From NCBI RefSeq assembly GCF_013184745.1, contig NZ_JAATVU010000056.1:1-38889 (forward strand): a stretch of DNA of 38,889 nt. Direction: 5' to 3'. How positions within the stretch are numbered: the first letter of the stretch is position 1; each line of letters starts with the position of its first letter. Shown piece by piece: positions 22,072 through 26,796 of the stretch. Under the pieces are notes generated by a model. The model did not search any database. It was not told the origin of the DNA and saw only the letters and a list, made by a program, of their open reading frames with translations. Made by a program: the position numbers and the translations under genes. The DNA is from Mangrovicoccus sp. HB161399. GTDB lineage: Bacteria > Pseudomonadota > Alphaproteobacteria > Rhodobacterales > Rhodobacteraceae.

Positions 22072-23253
22072 TCAGTCCGGCGCGGTCCCGGCCACCAGCG
22101 GCTCGAAGCGGGAGGCGAGCGCGCAGAGGAAGGCATCGCGCCCCGGCGCGGCGTTGAACTGCACCGAGGATTTCAGCCCGTTCGCCGCCGCGCCGCCCGG
22201 CACGCAGGCCGCGGGCAGCTTGGCGAGCGACCAGATGCGGTTGACGAAGGGATCGCCGGTCCAGCCCAGCCCTTCCGGCGCCAGCGCGGCGGCTGCCGGC
22301 CCCATCACCGCGTCGATGTCCGCGAAGAGGGCGGTGCAGAACAGCCGGAACCGGTCGGCGGTCTCCAGCGCCGCTGCATAGTCCTCGTGGGGAATCGCCA
22401 GGGATGCGTCGCAGAAATCGCGCAGTTCCTCCGACAGCAGGTCGCGGTGCTCCGCCAGCTCGCGCGCCAGCGCGCGGGGGATTTCGTAGCCCATGACGGT
22501 CTTCTGCGCGTCCATCATCTCGAGGAACGGCGCCGGATCGTCGAGCTCGGTGACGCTGTGGCCGGCCGCGCGGATCGCCTCCGCTGCCCCTGTGACGGTG
22601 CTGCGGGTGGCGTCATCCACGGCCTCCCAGACCGCAGCCGGCAGCAGCGCGAGCTTCAGCGGGCGGTCGGGCAGGGGCTCGGGCGACCAGGCGGGAAAGG
22701 CCTTCAGCATCGCCTCGATCCCGGCCATGTCGCGGGCGAAGACGCCGACCCGGTCGAGCGTCGGCGACATGATGCGCACGCCCGCGCGGGGAATGTAGCC
22801 TGCCGAAGGCAGGAAGCCCGCGATGCCGCAGAAGGCGGCCGGGCGGATCACCGATCCGGCGGTCTGGGTGCCGAGCGCCCAGTCGAGCAGTCCGGCGGAG
22901 ACGCCCGCGACCGAGCCCGAGGAACTGCCGCCCGGCGAATGCGCCATGTTCAGCGGGTTGCGCGTCGGGCCGGGCTTCGTGGTGGCGTATTCGGTGGTGA
23001 CGGTCTTGCCGATCACGGTGGCGCCGGCGGCTTCCAGGGCTGCGACGCAGGGCGCGGTGGCGGCGGGCATCTGCCCCTCGCAGATCGGCGAGCCGCATTG
23101 CGTCGCCAGCCCGGCCACATCGATGATGTCCTTGACGCCCAGCCGTATGGCCGGGCGGTCCGCGGGCAGATCGGGGGACAGCTGGACGAAAGCCTTCAGC
23201 TCCCGTTCCACGTTTCCAAGCTCCGCGATCCAGTCGGGGGTCGTCATTGCCAT
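22072..23253 (-). CDS. Amidase-signature hydrolase, malonamidase-like
   Basis: A 393-aa amidase-signature enzyme. The Ser-cisSer-Lys triad is visible: Lys41 (GVKDIID), cis-Ser110 (GGSSSGS) and nucleophile Ser134 (GTQTAGSVIRP). Spacings of 69 and 24 residues equal those I recall for malonamidase E2 (Lys62, Ser131, Ser155). It hydrolyses an amide to acid and ammonia in the cytosol; the compact size also fits malonamidase-like members rather than GatA. Start at ATG 23253 after AGGA; ATG at 23247 is a close alternative. It is first in the operon with dctPQM, so the TRAP system probably imports its amide substrate or an analogue. The true substrate is not deducible. Confidence 0.9.
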   Translation of the reverse strand: MAMTTPDWIAELGNVERELKAFVQLSPDLPADRPAIRLGVKDIIDVAGLATQCGSPICEGQMPAATAPCVAALEAAGATVIGKTVTTEYATTKPGPTRNPLNMAHSPGGSSSGSVAGVSAGLLDWALGTQTAGSVIRPAAFCGIAGFLPSAGYIPRAGVRIMSPTLDRVGVFARDMAGIEAMLKAFPAWSPEPLPDRPLKLALLPAAVWEAVDDATRSTVTGAAEAIRAAGHSVTELDDPAPFLEMMDAQKTVMGYEIPRALARELAEHRDLLSEELRDFCDASLAIPHEDYAAALETADRFRLFCTALFADIDAVMGPAAAALAPEGLGWTGDPFVNRIWSLAKLPAACVPGGAAANGLKSSVQFNAAPGRDAFLCALASRFEPLVAGTAPD

Positions 23254-23325
23254 GCCTGTCTTTCCTGCCAGTTCCGTGCAGGAGTTTCTGCGCGGCAGCA
23301 TGACTCGGGCAAGATATAATTATTC

Positions 23326-23467: not shown

Positions 23468-23584
23468 AAAAAAGAAGCGGCGACCCCAGGGAGGAGGAGG
23501 GGGCCGCCGCAGATTTTCCGCAGCTCAGGGAGGAGGAGGAGCTGCCGGAAACTCGTAAATCCGGAGGATGCTGCTGCATCCGAT
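23468..23584 (-). ncRNA. Predicted cuckoo/CcsR-like small RNA with two CCUCCUCCC loops
   Basis: On the minus strand three stem-loops follow each other. Hairpin 1 is GGATGC-loop-GCATCC (23581-23566). Hairpin 2 has a 7-bp stem GCAGCTC/GAGCTGC (23545-23520). Hairpin 3 has an 11-bp stem with one G-U pair (23510-23477) and runs into TTCTTTTTT, an intrinsic terminator. Hairpins 2 and 3 display the identical 12-base loop CTCCTCCTCCCT, complementary to Shine-Dalgarno sequences. Rhodobacter CcsR/cuckoo RNAs are known for exactly such CCUCCUCCC loops in stem-loops and act in stress responses. Those are often linked to a small DUF1127 gene; I find none here. The transcript would be about 115 nt from the promoter at 23591-23619. 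It lies downstream of uspA, same strand. No protein frame here is convincing. Confidence 0.7.
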
Positions 23585-23619: not shown

Positions 23620-23634
23620 GATATTTTGCTGCAA
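23611..23634. promoter_or_regulatory. 24-bp inverted repeat over the sRNA -35 region
   Basis: TTGCAGCAA-N6-TTGCTGCAA is a perfect repeat whose proximal arm contains the predicted -35 of the small RNA. It has no U tract, so an operator is more likely than a terminator. The regulator is unknown. Confidence 0.45.
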
Positions 23635-23685
23635 GGCAGCAATGCAGTTGCAGCATGGCTCCCGGGCCATGGCCCGGACATGCAA

Positions 23686-23735: not shown

Positions 23736-24158
23736 TCAGCCGTCGCGCAGCACCAGCACGGATTTCCTCGAATGCCGCAGCAGCCGCGAGGCGTTGCTGC
23801 CGAGCAGATATTCCCTGAGCTCGGGCCGGTGCGCGCCGACGATGATGAGCCCGACATCCAGCTCGTCTGCCAGCCGGATCACCTTGTCGTAGACCGTGCC
23901 TTCAAGCACGTGGATCTGCGCGTCGATCCCGGCAGCCTCCACCGCGCGGACCAGCTCGCCGCGGGCGGCTTCGAGCGAGCGGGCCTCGAAATCCTCGCCC
24001 AGCTGCGAGCCGACGATCGCCATGCCGACATCGGGCACGACGGTGACGACATGCAGCGCCGCCCCCCAGCAGGCACAGCTTTCGGCTGCAGCCTTCAGCA
24101 GGGCCTGCGTCTCGCCGGGAACCGCGACGTCGACGGATGCCAGAACGGACTTGAACAT
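23736..24158 (-). CDS. Universal stress protein (UspA family), TRAP-linked
   Basis: A 140-aa Usp domain: MFKSVLASVDVA at the start, LHVVTVVPD, and the C-terminal nucleotide-binding segment IIVGAHRPELREYLLGSNASRLLRHSRKSVLVLR. The G-x2-G-x9-G(S/T) ATP motif has Arg in place of the second Gly, while GSNAS is kept. It is separated by 13 bp from the fused TRAP permease gene and so belongs to that operon. The known parallel is TeaD of Halomonas, a Usp protein that tunes the TeaABC TRAP transporter; a similar role is likely but inferred. GGGGAG precedes the ATG. Confidence 0.92.
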   Translation of the reverse strand: MFKSVLASVDVAVPGETQALLKAAAESCACWGAALHVVTVVPDVGMAIVGSQLGEDFEARSLEAARGELVRAVEAAGIDAQIHVLEGTVYDKVIRLADELDVGLIIVGAHRPELREYLLGSNASRLLRHSRKSVLVLRDG

Positions 24159-24171
24159 CTCCTGTCTCCCC

Positions 24172-26796
24172 TCAGAAGGCCGGCTGCGTCGCCCGCGGGC
24201 GCTGGACCATCACGATCAGCGCCAGGAGCAGGAAGGCCGGGATGAAGAACACTTCCTTCGGCATCCGGTCGTTCTCGACCTTGACCGAAACGATCCGCGC
24301 GGGCTCGTCGCCGTAGAAGTCGAAGCCGTTGGCCAGCGTCTCGAAGAAGGGCGTGCCGGGGAAGGGCTCTTCCAGCAGCAGCTGTTCGCCCTCTTCCAGC
24401 ACGGTCAGCCCGGCGGCTTCCAGCCGCGCCAGACCGCCGCCGGCGTCCTGCGGCGTGATCTGCAGCGTGGTCGTGGCCAGCTTGCCGGTGTCGAAATCGG
24501 GCGCCTCGACCTCGACCCGGGCGGATGTGCCCGCGGGCAGGCTGCCGATGGCGTCGAGCGCGGCGGTGCCTTCGTAGCTCTGGAACTCCGGCTCGATCTG
24601 GTCGAGCCAGAAGCCCGGACGGAACAGCGTGAAGACGACCAGCAGGATCACCGCGGTTTCCCACAGGCGGCTTTTCGCGATGAAATAGCCCTGCGTCGCG
24701 GCGGCGAAGAGCAGCATGGCCACCAGCGAGACGCAGAAGATCAGGATCGCGTGGAAGAAGGTCACGTCGATCAGCAGGAGGTCCGTGTTGAAGATGAACA
24801 TGAAGGGCAGCAGCGCCGTGCGGATGTCGTAGCTGAAGCCGACGAGGCCGGTCTTGATCGGATCCCCGCGCGAGATCGCGGCGGCGGCATAGGCGGCAAG
24901 TCCCACGGGCGGCGTGTCGTCGGCGAGGATGCCGAAGTAGAAGACGAACATGTGGACCGCGATCAGCGGCACGATCAGCCCGGATTGCGCGCCGACCGAG
25001 ACGATGACCGGCGCCATCAGCGAGGACACGACGATGTAGTTGGCCGTGGTAGGCAGGCCCATGCCGAGCACCAGCGACAGCACGGCGACGAGGACCAGCA
25101 GCACCATCAGGTTGCCGCCCGAAATGGTCTCGATCACCTGGCCGATGATCTGGTGCGCGCCGGTGAGGCTGATCGTGCCGACGATGATGCCGGCCGCGCC
25201 GGTGGCGACGCCGATGCCGATCATGTTGCGCGCGCCCGCGACGAGACCCGAGACGAAATCGGCGAAGCCCGCCAGCGTCTCGCCCGCCATGGCGGAGCCG
25301 CCGCGGAACATCGCCTTCAGCGGGCGGTGGGTCAGCGCGACGATGATCATCGCGATGGTCGCCCAGAAGGCCGAGAGCGCGGGCGACAGCCGCTCCAGCG
25401 TGTCGGTGCGCACCATCAGGTTCCACACCAGCACGAAGATCGGCAGCGCGTAGTAGGCGCCGCCCAGCAGGGTCGGCGTCAGGCGCGGCGCCGAGACGAC
25501 AGGGGCGTTCGGGTCGTCCACCTCGATGTCCGGATAGCGCGAGGCGACATAGACGAGGCCCAGATAGGCAAGCCCCAGCAGCACAAGCGCGGCATAGATC
25601 GTCTCGCCGGGCATCAGCGGCTCCAGCATCATCCGGATGCCGATGACGGCCATGGTGACCGCGGCCATGGCGAGGAAGCCGGTGAGGAACAGGATCAGGA
25701 TCATCGGCACGCCGATCGCGCGGCCGGGCTTGTCGAGCCCCTTCAGCCCCATCTTCAGGCTTTCCAGGTGCACGATGTAGAGCAGCGCGATGTAGGAAAT
25801 CACGGCCGGCAGGAAGGCGTGCTTCACCACCTCGATATAGGGGATGTTGACGTATTCGACCATCAGGAAGGCCGCGGCGCCCATCACCGGCGGCGTCAGC
25901 TGGCCGTTGGTGGAGCTTGCCACCTCGACCGCGCCGGCCTTTTCGGGCGAGAAGCCGATGCGCTTCATCAGCGGGATGGTGAAGGTGCCGGTGGTCACCG
26001 TGTTGGCGATGGACGAGCCCGAGATCATGCCGGTCATCATCGAGGACAGAACCGCCGCCTTGGCCGGGCCGCCGCGCAGCGCGCCCAGCATGGCGATGGC
26101 GACCTTGATGAACCAGTTGCCGCCCCCGGCCTTCTCCAGGAGCGCGCCGAACAGCACGAAGAGGAAGATCATCGTGGTGGAGACGCCGAGCGCGACGCCG
26201 AACACGCCCTCGGTCTGCATCCAGTAATGGCCCATCGCCTTGGAGAAGGAGGCGCCGCCGTAGTTGGTGAGGTTGCCGATCCAGGCGGAATAGCCGCCGA
26301 AGAATGCGAGCGCCAGGAAGAGCGAGCAGATGATCACCAGCGGCAGGCCGAGCGAGCGGAAGGTCGCAACCATCAGAACCACCATGCCGATTCCGGACAT
26401 GACGATGTCGGTCATGCTCCACAGCCCCGGCCGCTGCGCGATCTCGAAGCGGAACACCACGAGATAGAGGCAGGCCGCCACGCCGAGGATGGCCAGCGCC
26501 CAGTCATAGGCGGGCACCCGGTCGCGGTGGCCCATGATCGGGAAGGCCAGCGTCGCCAGCAGCAGCGCGAAGGCCAGGTGGACGTAGCGCGCCTGGGCGA
26601 CGATGTTGGCGAATTCGGACACGCCGGTCAGCTGCGCCATGACGCCGGGCAGCTTCGAGGCGATGTAGAGCTGGAACAGAGACCAGATGATGCAGAGCGC
26701 GAAGATCAGCTTGGTCACGAAGGGCCCGGCCTCGCGGGCGCCGGTATCGGCCGCGGCGACCATTTCCTCCGCGGATAGTTGCGTCTTGTCGCTCAT
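24172..26796 (-). CDS. TAXI-type TRAP transporter fused permease (DctQ-DctM)
   Basis: An 874-aa membrane protein joining the small and large TRAP permeases, the form that works with TAXI receptors. An N-terminal block of about four spans (FVTKLIFALCIIWSLFQLYIA...) is followed by the DctM-like part with ATTMIFLFVLFGALLEKAGGG, GMISGSSIANTVTTGTFTIP and VLSLVLGMGLPTTANYIVVSSLMAP. Near the C-terminus a soluble segment (about residues 730-840, ATTTLQITPQDAGGGL...) precedes a last span ending KEVFFIPAFLLLALIVMVQRP. It follows the TAXI receptor gene after a 91-bp gap holding a hairpin. Confidence 0.93.
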   Translation of the reverse strand: MSDKTQLSAEEMVAAADTGAREAGPFVTKLIFALCIIWSLFQLYIASKLPGVMAQLTGVSEFANIVAQARYVHLAFALLLATLAFPIMGHRDRVPAYDWALAILGVAACLYLVVFRFEIAQRPGLWSMTDIVMSGIGMVVLMVATFRSLGLPLVIICSLFLALAFFGGYSAWIGNLTNYGGASFSKAMGHYWMQTEGVFGVALGVSTTMIFLFVLFGALLEKAGGGNWFIKVAIAMLGALRGGPAKAAVLSSMMTGMISGSSIANTVTTGTFTIPLMKRIGFSPEKAGAVEVASSTNGQLTPPVMGAAAFLMVEYVNIPYIEVVKHAFLPAVISYIALLYIVHLESLKMGLKGLDKPGRAIGVPMILILFLTGFLAMAAVTMAVIGIRMMLEPLMPGETIYAALVLLGLAYLGLVYVASRYPDIEVDDPNAPVVSAPRLTPTLLGGAYYALPIFVLVWNLMVRTDTLERLSPALSAFWATIAMIIVALTHRPLKAMFRGGSAMAGETLAGFADFVSGLVAGARNMIGIGVATGAAGIIVGTISLTGAHQIIGQVIETISGGNLMVLLVLVAVLSLVLGMGLPTTANYIVVSSLMAPVIVSVGAQSGLIVPLIAVHMFVFYFGILADDTPPVGLAAYAAAAISRGDPIKTGLVGFSYDIRTALLPFMFIFNTDLLLIDVTFFHAILIFCVSLVAMLLFAAATQGYFIAKSRLWETAVILLVVFTLFRPGFWLDQIEPEFQSYEGTAALDAIGSLPAGTSARVEVEAPDFDTGKLATTTLQITPQDAGGGLARLEAAGLTVLEEGEQLLLEEPFPGTPFFETLANGFDFYGDEPARIVSVKVENDRMPKEVFFIPAFLLLALIVMVQRPRATQPAF

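Follow-up and report, generated by a model that had tools for sequence, protein, structure and literature searches.

The cuckoo RNAs comprise 2-4 neighbouring hairpins, each with a loop that contains CCUCCUCCC; the family was reportedly described by Reinkensmeier and Giegerich in 2015 as neighbouring hairpins that have a loop motif in common and differ in their stems. In many Alphaproteobacteria, the CcsR/cuckoo RNAs are linked by synteny to DUF1127 proteins. Excerpts of the published work describe several features of these RNAs and of related regulators: (i) cuckoo RNAs occur with two, three, and four hairpins (PMC3927594), (ii) in R. sphaeroides, CcsR1-4 depend on RpoHI/RpoHII (PMC8307010, PMC10253847) and CcsR RNAs are processed from mRNA (PMC8307010), (iii) the Sinorhizobium NfeR1 RNA has an LsrB site, TGCA-N6-GCAT, at -72 to -60, and its anti-Shine-Dalgarno (anti-SD) loops silence ntrB in vivo, which loop mutants fail to do (PMC10746234); six NfeR1-type copies are present in S. 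meliloti (PMC7143759), and (iv) VtlR, the primary regulator of DUF1127 genes and AbcR2 (PMC12595884), has a box of the form GCAT-N3-TG-N3-T (PMC7486931), printed as CAATGCAGCCATGCA (PMC12595884). A cuckoo RNA and LsrB are treated together in PMC10746234 and PMC7143759, the excerpts of which deal with NfeR1 and AbcR of Sinorhizobium. LsrB has been called unique to Rhizobiales from a tree with few proteins (excerpt of PMC11975290).

The window analyzed here is a stretch of 38,889 nucleotides, the complete contig C276 of the 7.18-Mb Mangrovicoccus sp. HB161399 genome of 323 contigs. The closest named relatives of its TRAP gene belong to Mangrovicoccus ximenensis (95%), Poseidonocella sp. HB161398 (91%), and Mangrovicoccus algicola (90%); a plasmid search revealed no close relative of the window, the best row covering 18% of the query at 79.5%. 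As assigned by Pfam, the minus-strand gene order is TAXI receptor, TRAP transporter fused permease (DctM, DUF3394; 24172-26796), uspA (Usp domain; 23736-24158), the RNA element, and amidase (22072-23301). A previous sequence-only reading had placed the element behind uspA and TAXI/TRAP genes and found no adjoining DUF1127 gene; both statements agree with the Pfam assignments, uspA occupying the upstream position instead. The uspA/TRAP context of the sRNA varies between relatives: in M. algicola, the TRAP match and the sRNA match are only 102 nt apart, which leaves no space for uspA, and this gene is missing from the orthologue.

The predicted sRNA transcript is about 117 nt long (23468-23584, minus strand), with a start near 23584 as deduced from the -10 element. 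The three minus-strand hairpins of the sequence-only reading, two of them with an identical 12-base loop, are all present in the fold. The 5' hairpin, GGATGC-AGCA-GCATCC (23566-23581), lacks the anti-SD loop; it is followed by the first cuckoo hairpin (about 23515-23551), with the loop CTCCTCCTCCCT at 23538-23527, and by the second one (23477-23510), with the same loop CTCCTCCTCCCT at 23499-23488. The latter hairpin doubles as the stem of the terminator that had been proposed and runs into a U-tract at 23476-23468. Minus-strand folding, suggested earlier as a check, gave -56.8 kcal/mol for a 141-nt stretch versus -39.4 +/- 3.4 for shuffled sequences (z -5.2), and 0 of 200 shuffles folded as well.

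A search for the 12-mer loop over the genome yielded 21 occurrences versus 2 for the reversed control, and 16 of the 21 form eight pairs spaced by 37-39 nt, one of which is the window pair. The covariance model R1, built from the ten copies found in this genome, retrieves these ten with E-values from 3.7e-29 to 4.9e-21, the next match being at 0.039. The copies are unlinked and dispersed over ten contigs, so that the element, previously taken for a separate and locally unassigned single member, is in fact one of ten. None of the four DUF1127 genes of the genome (Pfam) resides on any copy-bearing contig. The TRAP locus of M. ximenensis (L067) has no R1 match, and the window-like copy of that species is located on a different contig.

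The earlier suggestion that different stems carry a conserved loop is supported by covariation: over the ten copies, 13 of 25 base pairs show changes on both sides, versus 3-6 when the partner is slid. Pairing holds in 94.7% of cells, a share that is not independent evidence because the structure was derived from those same rows. The proposed comparison with relatives gave a similar picture: of 38 copies from four genomes, 33 have kept both loops intact. The five remaining copies are four C90 orthologues, each with one intact loop, and a 25-bit match (L174) that is probably false. In the C90 locus and its three orthologues, the second loop is degenerate in all four genomes and the promoter box is kept. 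For the 5' hairpin, we used the 36 copies with enough sequence, L159 being too short. The 5' segment belongs to the best 5% of its own shuffles in 16 of these (about 2 expected); at a loose cut of -3 kcal/mol, 26 copies pass, little better than the 23.6 expected by chance. Many copies fold a 5' hairpin whose sequence varies and differs from that at 23581-23566 in the window. Each of the four window orthologues has such a hairpin, with nearly the window sequence in three and a different one in the fourth. This hairpin may shield the 5' end of the RNA.

Among 246 genomes of the family, at least 197 have an R1 match at E<=1e-6. With 15 candidates scored per genome, the copy counts are lower bounds, and on these counts the ten copies of the present genome are the most; the next highest are at least 9 in each of G113 and G239 and at least 8 in G003, a genome of the same genus. 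Numerous or dispersed cuckoo copies were also observed in G113, G239, and G119, which represent other Paracoccaceae genera. In the three congeners (G001, G002, and G003), the copies are dispersed as well; in other genera, they mostly form tandem clusters, and a DUF1127 ORF, detected by a regular expression, lies near the cuckoos in 16 of 24 other-genus loci. A weak eleventh match in G001 (E 0.003) was kept outside the copy set. Six locus groups, including that of the window, are common to all four genomes by their flanks, some of which are partial. The flanking homology of the window extends over 3218 nt in G002 and 3299 nt in G003 and is short in G001, where 276 nt match upstream at 87% and 955 nt match downstream at 70%. 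A 755-nt match at 100% between two M. algicola loci is due to overlapping fetches.

As judged from its hairpins, loops, and Rfam scores, the window element is a cuckoo/CcsR-type sRNA, another member of this known kind that stands outside the curated CcsR1 and ar14 families. Two adjacent hairpins have loops with CCUCCUCCC, the 5' hairpin lacks the motif, and the stems vary around constant loops. The cuckoo/CcsR-like identity advanced from sequence alone was borne out by a targeted scan of 601 nt against Rfam: the match to CcsR1 (RF02791) spans the whole model with 56.0 bits (E 4.7e-13), under its gathering score of 65.3 bits, and that to ar14 (RF02344) is likewise full-length, with 44.9 bits (E 4.7e-7), under its gathering score of 58.8 bits. 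Rfam at the gathering threshold gives no match over the window. All ten copies of the genome stay below these cut-offs, the best of the others reaching 57.7 bits for CcsR1 and the best of all 50.7 bits for ar14. Only 2 of 12 cuckoo loci from other genera are called at the gathering thresholds, one as CcsR1 and one as ar14; since a single locus of the 12 reaches 65.3 bits, we regard the CcsR1 cut-off as strict. The position behind a DUF1127 (ccaF1) gene and the co-transcription with it that characterize CcsR1 were not found for the window sRNA, which has uspA upstream.

The 17-bp-spaced promoter that had been proposed upstream of the element was recovered as TTGCTG (-35; 23619-23614), 17 nt, and TAATGT (-10; 23596-23591) on the minus strand. 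A strict E. coli sigma-70 promoter scan does not call it; the support for this predicted promoter is comparative. When the upstream regions of the ten own copies are aligned without guidance, the columns of the box and of TTG show no variation. The box is a predicted LysR-type (LsrB/VtlR-like) site, ATGC-N7-GCAT-N7-TTGC (23631-23656), with its T-N11-A at 23655-23643. For guided tables, the box was sought within a range in 37 copies, that is, the 38 copies minus the weak 25-bit match L174, for which no promoter was found. The presence of TTG in these tables is by construction, because TTG with an A at a distance of 16-18 nt was the pattern sought; in the same guided set, the -10 element is located 16-17 nt past TTG. 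Over the 37 copies, the box has the form ATGC-N7-GCA followed by a near-invariant C and then by G and T, both invariant. The spacing is almost rigid: the distance from the T of the box to TTG is 36 nt in 31 of the 37 copies and 37 nt in five, and in the predicted frame this T falls at -70 to -72 in 36 of 37, which places the box at about -71/-59.

The predicted box agrees in both sequence and position with the excerpted LsrB/VtlR sites. Upstream of its core promoter, the window has ATGC-N7-GCAT, the first half reading TGCT instead of the TGCA of TGCA-N6-GCAT, and an exact copy of the VtlR form, GCAT-TGC-TG-CCT-T. The printed VtlR motif is matched in register at 13 of 15 bases (23646-23632, reverse complement of the motif). 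Over the 37 copies, the mean is 9.5 of 15 and 13 copies have 8 or fewer bases in register, so judged by this motif the box is weak in many copies. The LysR-type box common to the copies is what is new in this analysis; among the papers searched, none names a LysR-type regulator for CcsR, and an earlier report of the box is possible.

Promoters were compared between genomes with R2, a profile that uses sequence only and was built from 35 promoters of this one genus; of the 37, L159 and L162 were left out because of their different spacing. In the genome itself, the ten sRNA promoters rank first by construction, because they are contained in R2, and the next match is at 0.0023. Out of sample, R2 gives long matches (E<=2.3e-5) at 22 of 24 other-genus cuckoo loci, each located upstream of the cuckoos and on their strand; the remaining two give one partial match and one miss. 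At its best position, the VtlR motif is matched at 13 or 14 of 15 bases in 18 of the 23 other-genus loci with an R2 match; the mean over the 23 is 12.8 versus 8.05 for shuffles, which reach 12 at most. At L045, a CcsR1 copy that exceeds the Rfam cut-off (84.2 bits), the promoter has 14 of the 15 motif bases. In a control set of 59 TRAP loci (774 kb), strong matches were found only at three sRNA promoters, the next one being at 0.017.

In whole-genome R2 searches of 37 genomes, Paracoccaceae of other genera gave 23 matches with E<=1e-3: 12 upstream of cuckoo clusters (assigned by position), 7 at DUF1127 genes (assigned by an own profile, E<=2.6e-5), 2 at other small ORFs, and 2 within long ORFs. 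The last two (L274 and L282) were taken as chance matches on account of this location. A further DUF1127 match, L281 in G022 (E 0.0013), falls outside the tally. The six non-sRNA matches in the three congeners are at four DUF1127 genes, one DUF1127-like ORF, and one small ORF; among the four DUF1127 genes of the own genome, two have a match, and both matches are weak, one with 14.0 bits (E 0.29) and one with 12.8 bits (E 0.72). Judged by these promoter sequences, the link between the window sRNA and DUF1127 is a common promoter type and not adjacency.

Several small ORFs were noted behind promoters of this type. The best non-sRNA match in the own genome (L243; C265, 29085-29150) precedes a 73-aa ORF. 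We considered this ORF as a DUF1127 gene and rejected it, since Pfam does not assign it and the own profile gives E 0.3, equaled by a shuffled copy; it is related to the DUF1127-like ORF L266 of another genus (1.7e-11). At L272 and L275, ORFs of 32 and 49 aa behind an R2-type promoter both have EPVPxWxDYL and possibly form a further small-protein family.

The candidate regulator is LsrB/VtlR. In G037, the LysR protein encoded next to trxB is closely related to Agrobacterium LsrB (PDB 9HH1, 2.7e-101), and with this G037 protein as query, exactly one match at E<=1e-45 was found in each of 23 Paracoccaceae genomes, the own genome included; this argues against the restriction of LsrB to Rhizobiales proposed in PMC11975290. 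The single own orthologue, on contig C264, has 9HH1 as its best solved relative (3.5e-71, next 2.6e-31). Proximity to trxB was rejected as a marker of lsrB in the family: when flanks of 1.5 kb were searched with a regular expression matching the LTTR helix-turn-helix, such a pair was found in 0 of 10 Paracoccaceae genomes and at neither of the own trxB genes, versus 7 of 9 genomes outside the family. An LsrB box before the own lsrB was not found with a strict expression. Outside the family, two R2 matches at E<=1e-3 lie directly behind lsrB (G037 and G047); in the family member G012, a match behind lsrB is at 0.0071. SorX/SorY-type RNAs are located behind lsrB in G037, G012, and the own genome, and not in G047; only the G012 SorX reaches the cut-off. 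The one directly behind the own lsrB (L218, 2483-2562) has no R2 match at E<=10.

We consider it probable that the window element is an independently transcribed, trans-acting cuckoo/CcsR sRNA, predicted to be activated by LsrB/VtlR and to block Shine-Dalgarno sequences with its loops, and a daughter of the C281 locus described below. In the proposed pathway, a LysR-type regulator, most likely the LsrB/VtlR orthologue, would bind the ATGC-N7-GCA box, located some 71-59 nt upstream of the start, and activate the TTG-N17-TAnnTT-like promoter, probably during oxidative or nutrient stress. The resulting 117-nt RNA would consist of the 5' hairpin and the two hairpins with CCUCCUCCC loops, the last of which would also end transcription. 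Through its loops, the RNA may pair with Shine-Dalgarno sequences of the GGGAGGAG type in many mRNAs and thereby block translation. The hairpins, covariation, copy number, box, spacing, cross-genus promoter match, LsrB orthologue, and C281 synteny come from sequence; from these we infer transcription, LsrB binding, the stress signal, the targets, and the order of events.

It is less likely, though it deserves attention, that the sRNA is real and the box is read by another LysR-type protein such as OxyR, or acts together with an RpoH-type sigma factor, LsrB being secondary. The half-site spacing ATGC-N7-GCAT-N7-nTGC is similar to that of OxyR sites, and cuckoo-cluster promoters of other genera have, by eye, RpoH-like -10 elements such as CCCATGTT. 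The RpoHI/RpoHII dependence of CcsR1-4 in R. sphaeroides (excerpts of PMC8307010 and PMC10253847) is unexplained by the predicted LysR-type box and suggests joint control with it. We nevertheless favor LsrB/VtlR, as the sequence and position of the box fit what is published for LsrB and VtlR sites, the DUF1127 genes caught by R2 are the class that the excerpted text places under VtlR control, and R2 matches occur directly behind lsrB in G037, G047, and G012.

As for the targets, the sRNA loops are complementary to GGGAGGAGG, and the genome contains 71 GGGAGGAG-N3-9-ATG sites versus 10 for the reversed control; these are candidate sites, among which gene starts are not distinguished. By analogy with NfeR1, the sRNA would block the translation starts of many mRNAs while LsrB is active. 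That its main role is instead to bind or titrate DUF1127 RNA-binding proteins of the CcaF1 type seems improbable to us. Such a role would agree with the common promoter type of cuckoo and DUF1127 genes and with the excerpted report that CcaF1 binds RNAs and affects CcsR maturation (PMC10253847); however, it accounts neither for the 71 strong Shine-Dalgarno matches nor for the in vivo silencing of ntrB by the NfeR1 loops and its loss in loop mutants (excerpt of PMC10746234).

The location of the element downstream of uspA on the same strand, together with the processing of CcsR RNAs from mRNA in R. sphaeroides (excerpt of PMC8307010), might point to an element that has no gene of its own and belongs to the uspA/TRAP transcript, either as an RNA derived from the 3'-UTR or as a terminator. 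We regard this as very unlikely, because a promoter module with fixed spacing lies between uspA and the hairpins, the other own copies also have this module, in 3-kb surroundings that share only the element with the window, and the M. algicola orthologue lacks uspA.

Comparison of the locus groups suggests how the copies could have arisen. The C281 group has a neighbour gene in common with 13 of the 24 other-genus cuckoo loci, and the other nine groups have none; for three of these nine (C101, C310, and C319), the congener loci were assigned by promoter/hairpin likeness. No group other than that of C281 (L029) and its congeners L153, L171, and L162 is syntenic with other-genus cuckoo loci. The C281 promoter retains the other-genus form ATTGTGCA, and the distance of about 70 nt from the predicted start to the first loop is too short to hold a DUF1127 gene. 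From its sequence context, C281 appears to be the old DUF1127-CcsR (CIN1) parent locus from which the DUF1127 gene is gone, the order of events being deduced, and the window copy would be one of nine daughter copies.

The window hairpins (23551-23477) match those of the unlinked C294 locus (L024) at 83 of 88 positions, and the promoters at 45 of 109; C294 matches its own G001/G002 orthologues at 70-77 of 100 in the promoter and 73 of 89 in the hairpins. We read the likeness of the hairpins at differing promoters as an exchange of the hairpin unit, and recombination between the two copies is likely. The least probable of the readings, a spreading repeat with no regulatory role whose loops and box are conserved through recent copying, would fit the ten copies and this one close hairpin match, but the stems covary around intact loops, promoters agree at only 45/109 and 40/131 in the two paralogue pairs compared while box and spacing hold, and six locus groups have flanking homology, partial for some, in all four genomes.

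On balance, though with little assurance, we lean towards a scenario in which LsrB/VtlR is an ancestral alphaproteobacterial activator of one regulon made up of cuckoo/CcsR RNAs, DUF1127 proteins, and the SorX/AbcR-type RNA located next to lsrB; the Mangrovicoccus parent locus would have lost its DUF1127 gene, and a cassette made up of box, promoter, sRNA, and terminator, about 200 bp in all, would have spread to ten loci, its hairpins still recombining. Such a history would give a natural example in which an sRNA gene spread together with its promoter once the partner gene had been lost. The common box provides a concrete regulator candidate, LsrB/VtlR, in a family from which a 2025 paper reports LsrB absent, and predicts a small testable regulon that unites cuckoo/CcsR RNAs with DUF1127 small-protein genes.

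Compared with the described systems, the window sRNA resembles the cuckoo RNA family in its adjacent hairpins, single loop motif, and unlike stems and differs in the extra 5' hairpin without the motif; no feature excluding membership was found. It has in common with R. sphaeroides CcsR1-4 of the CIN1 locus the two hairpins with CCUCCUCCC in both loops, variable stems, and the full-length model match. Unlike CcsR1-4, it falls below the gathering score, is present at its locus as a single copy, and has its own predicted promoter and no DUF1127 gene before it; therefore, we see no sign of mRNA processing. The likeness to ar14/NfeR1 of Sinorhizobium lies in the anti-SD loops, several gene copies, own promoter, and LsrB box at equal distance, whereas NfeR1 has the motif in three hairpins rather than two and its host belongs to a different bacterial order. 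Finally, the box, the DUF1127 genes, and one anti-SD-type sRNA recall the LsrB/VtlR regulon of Rhizobiales; here, this regulon is a prediction from sequence alone, extended to Paracoccaceae and to the cuckoo/CcsR sRNAs.
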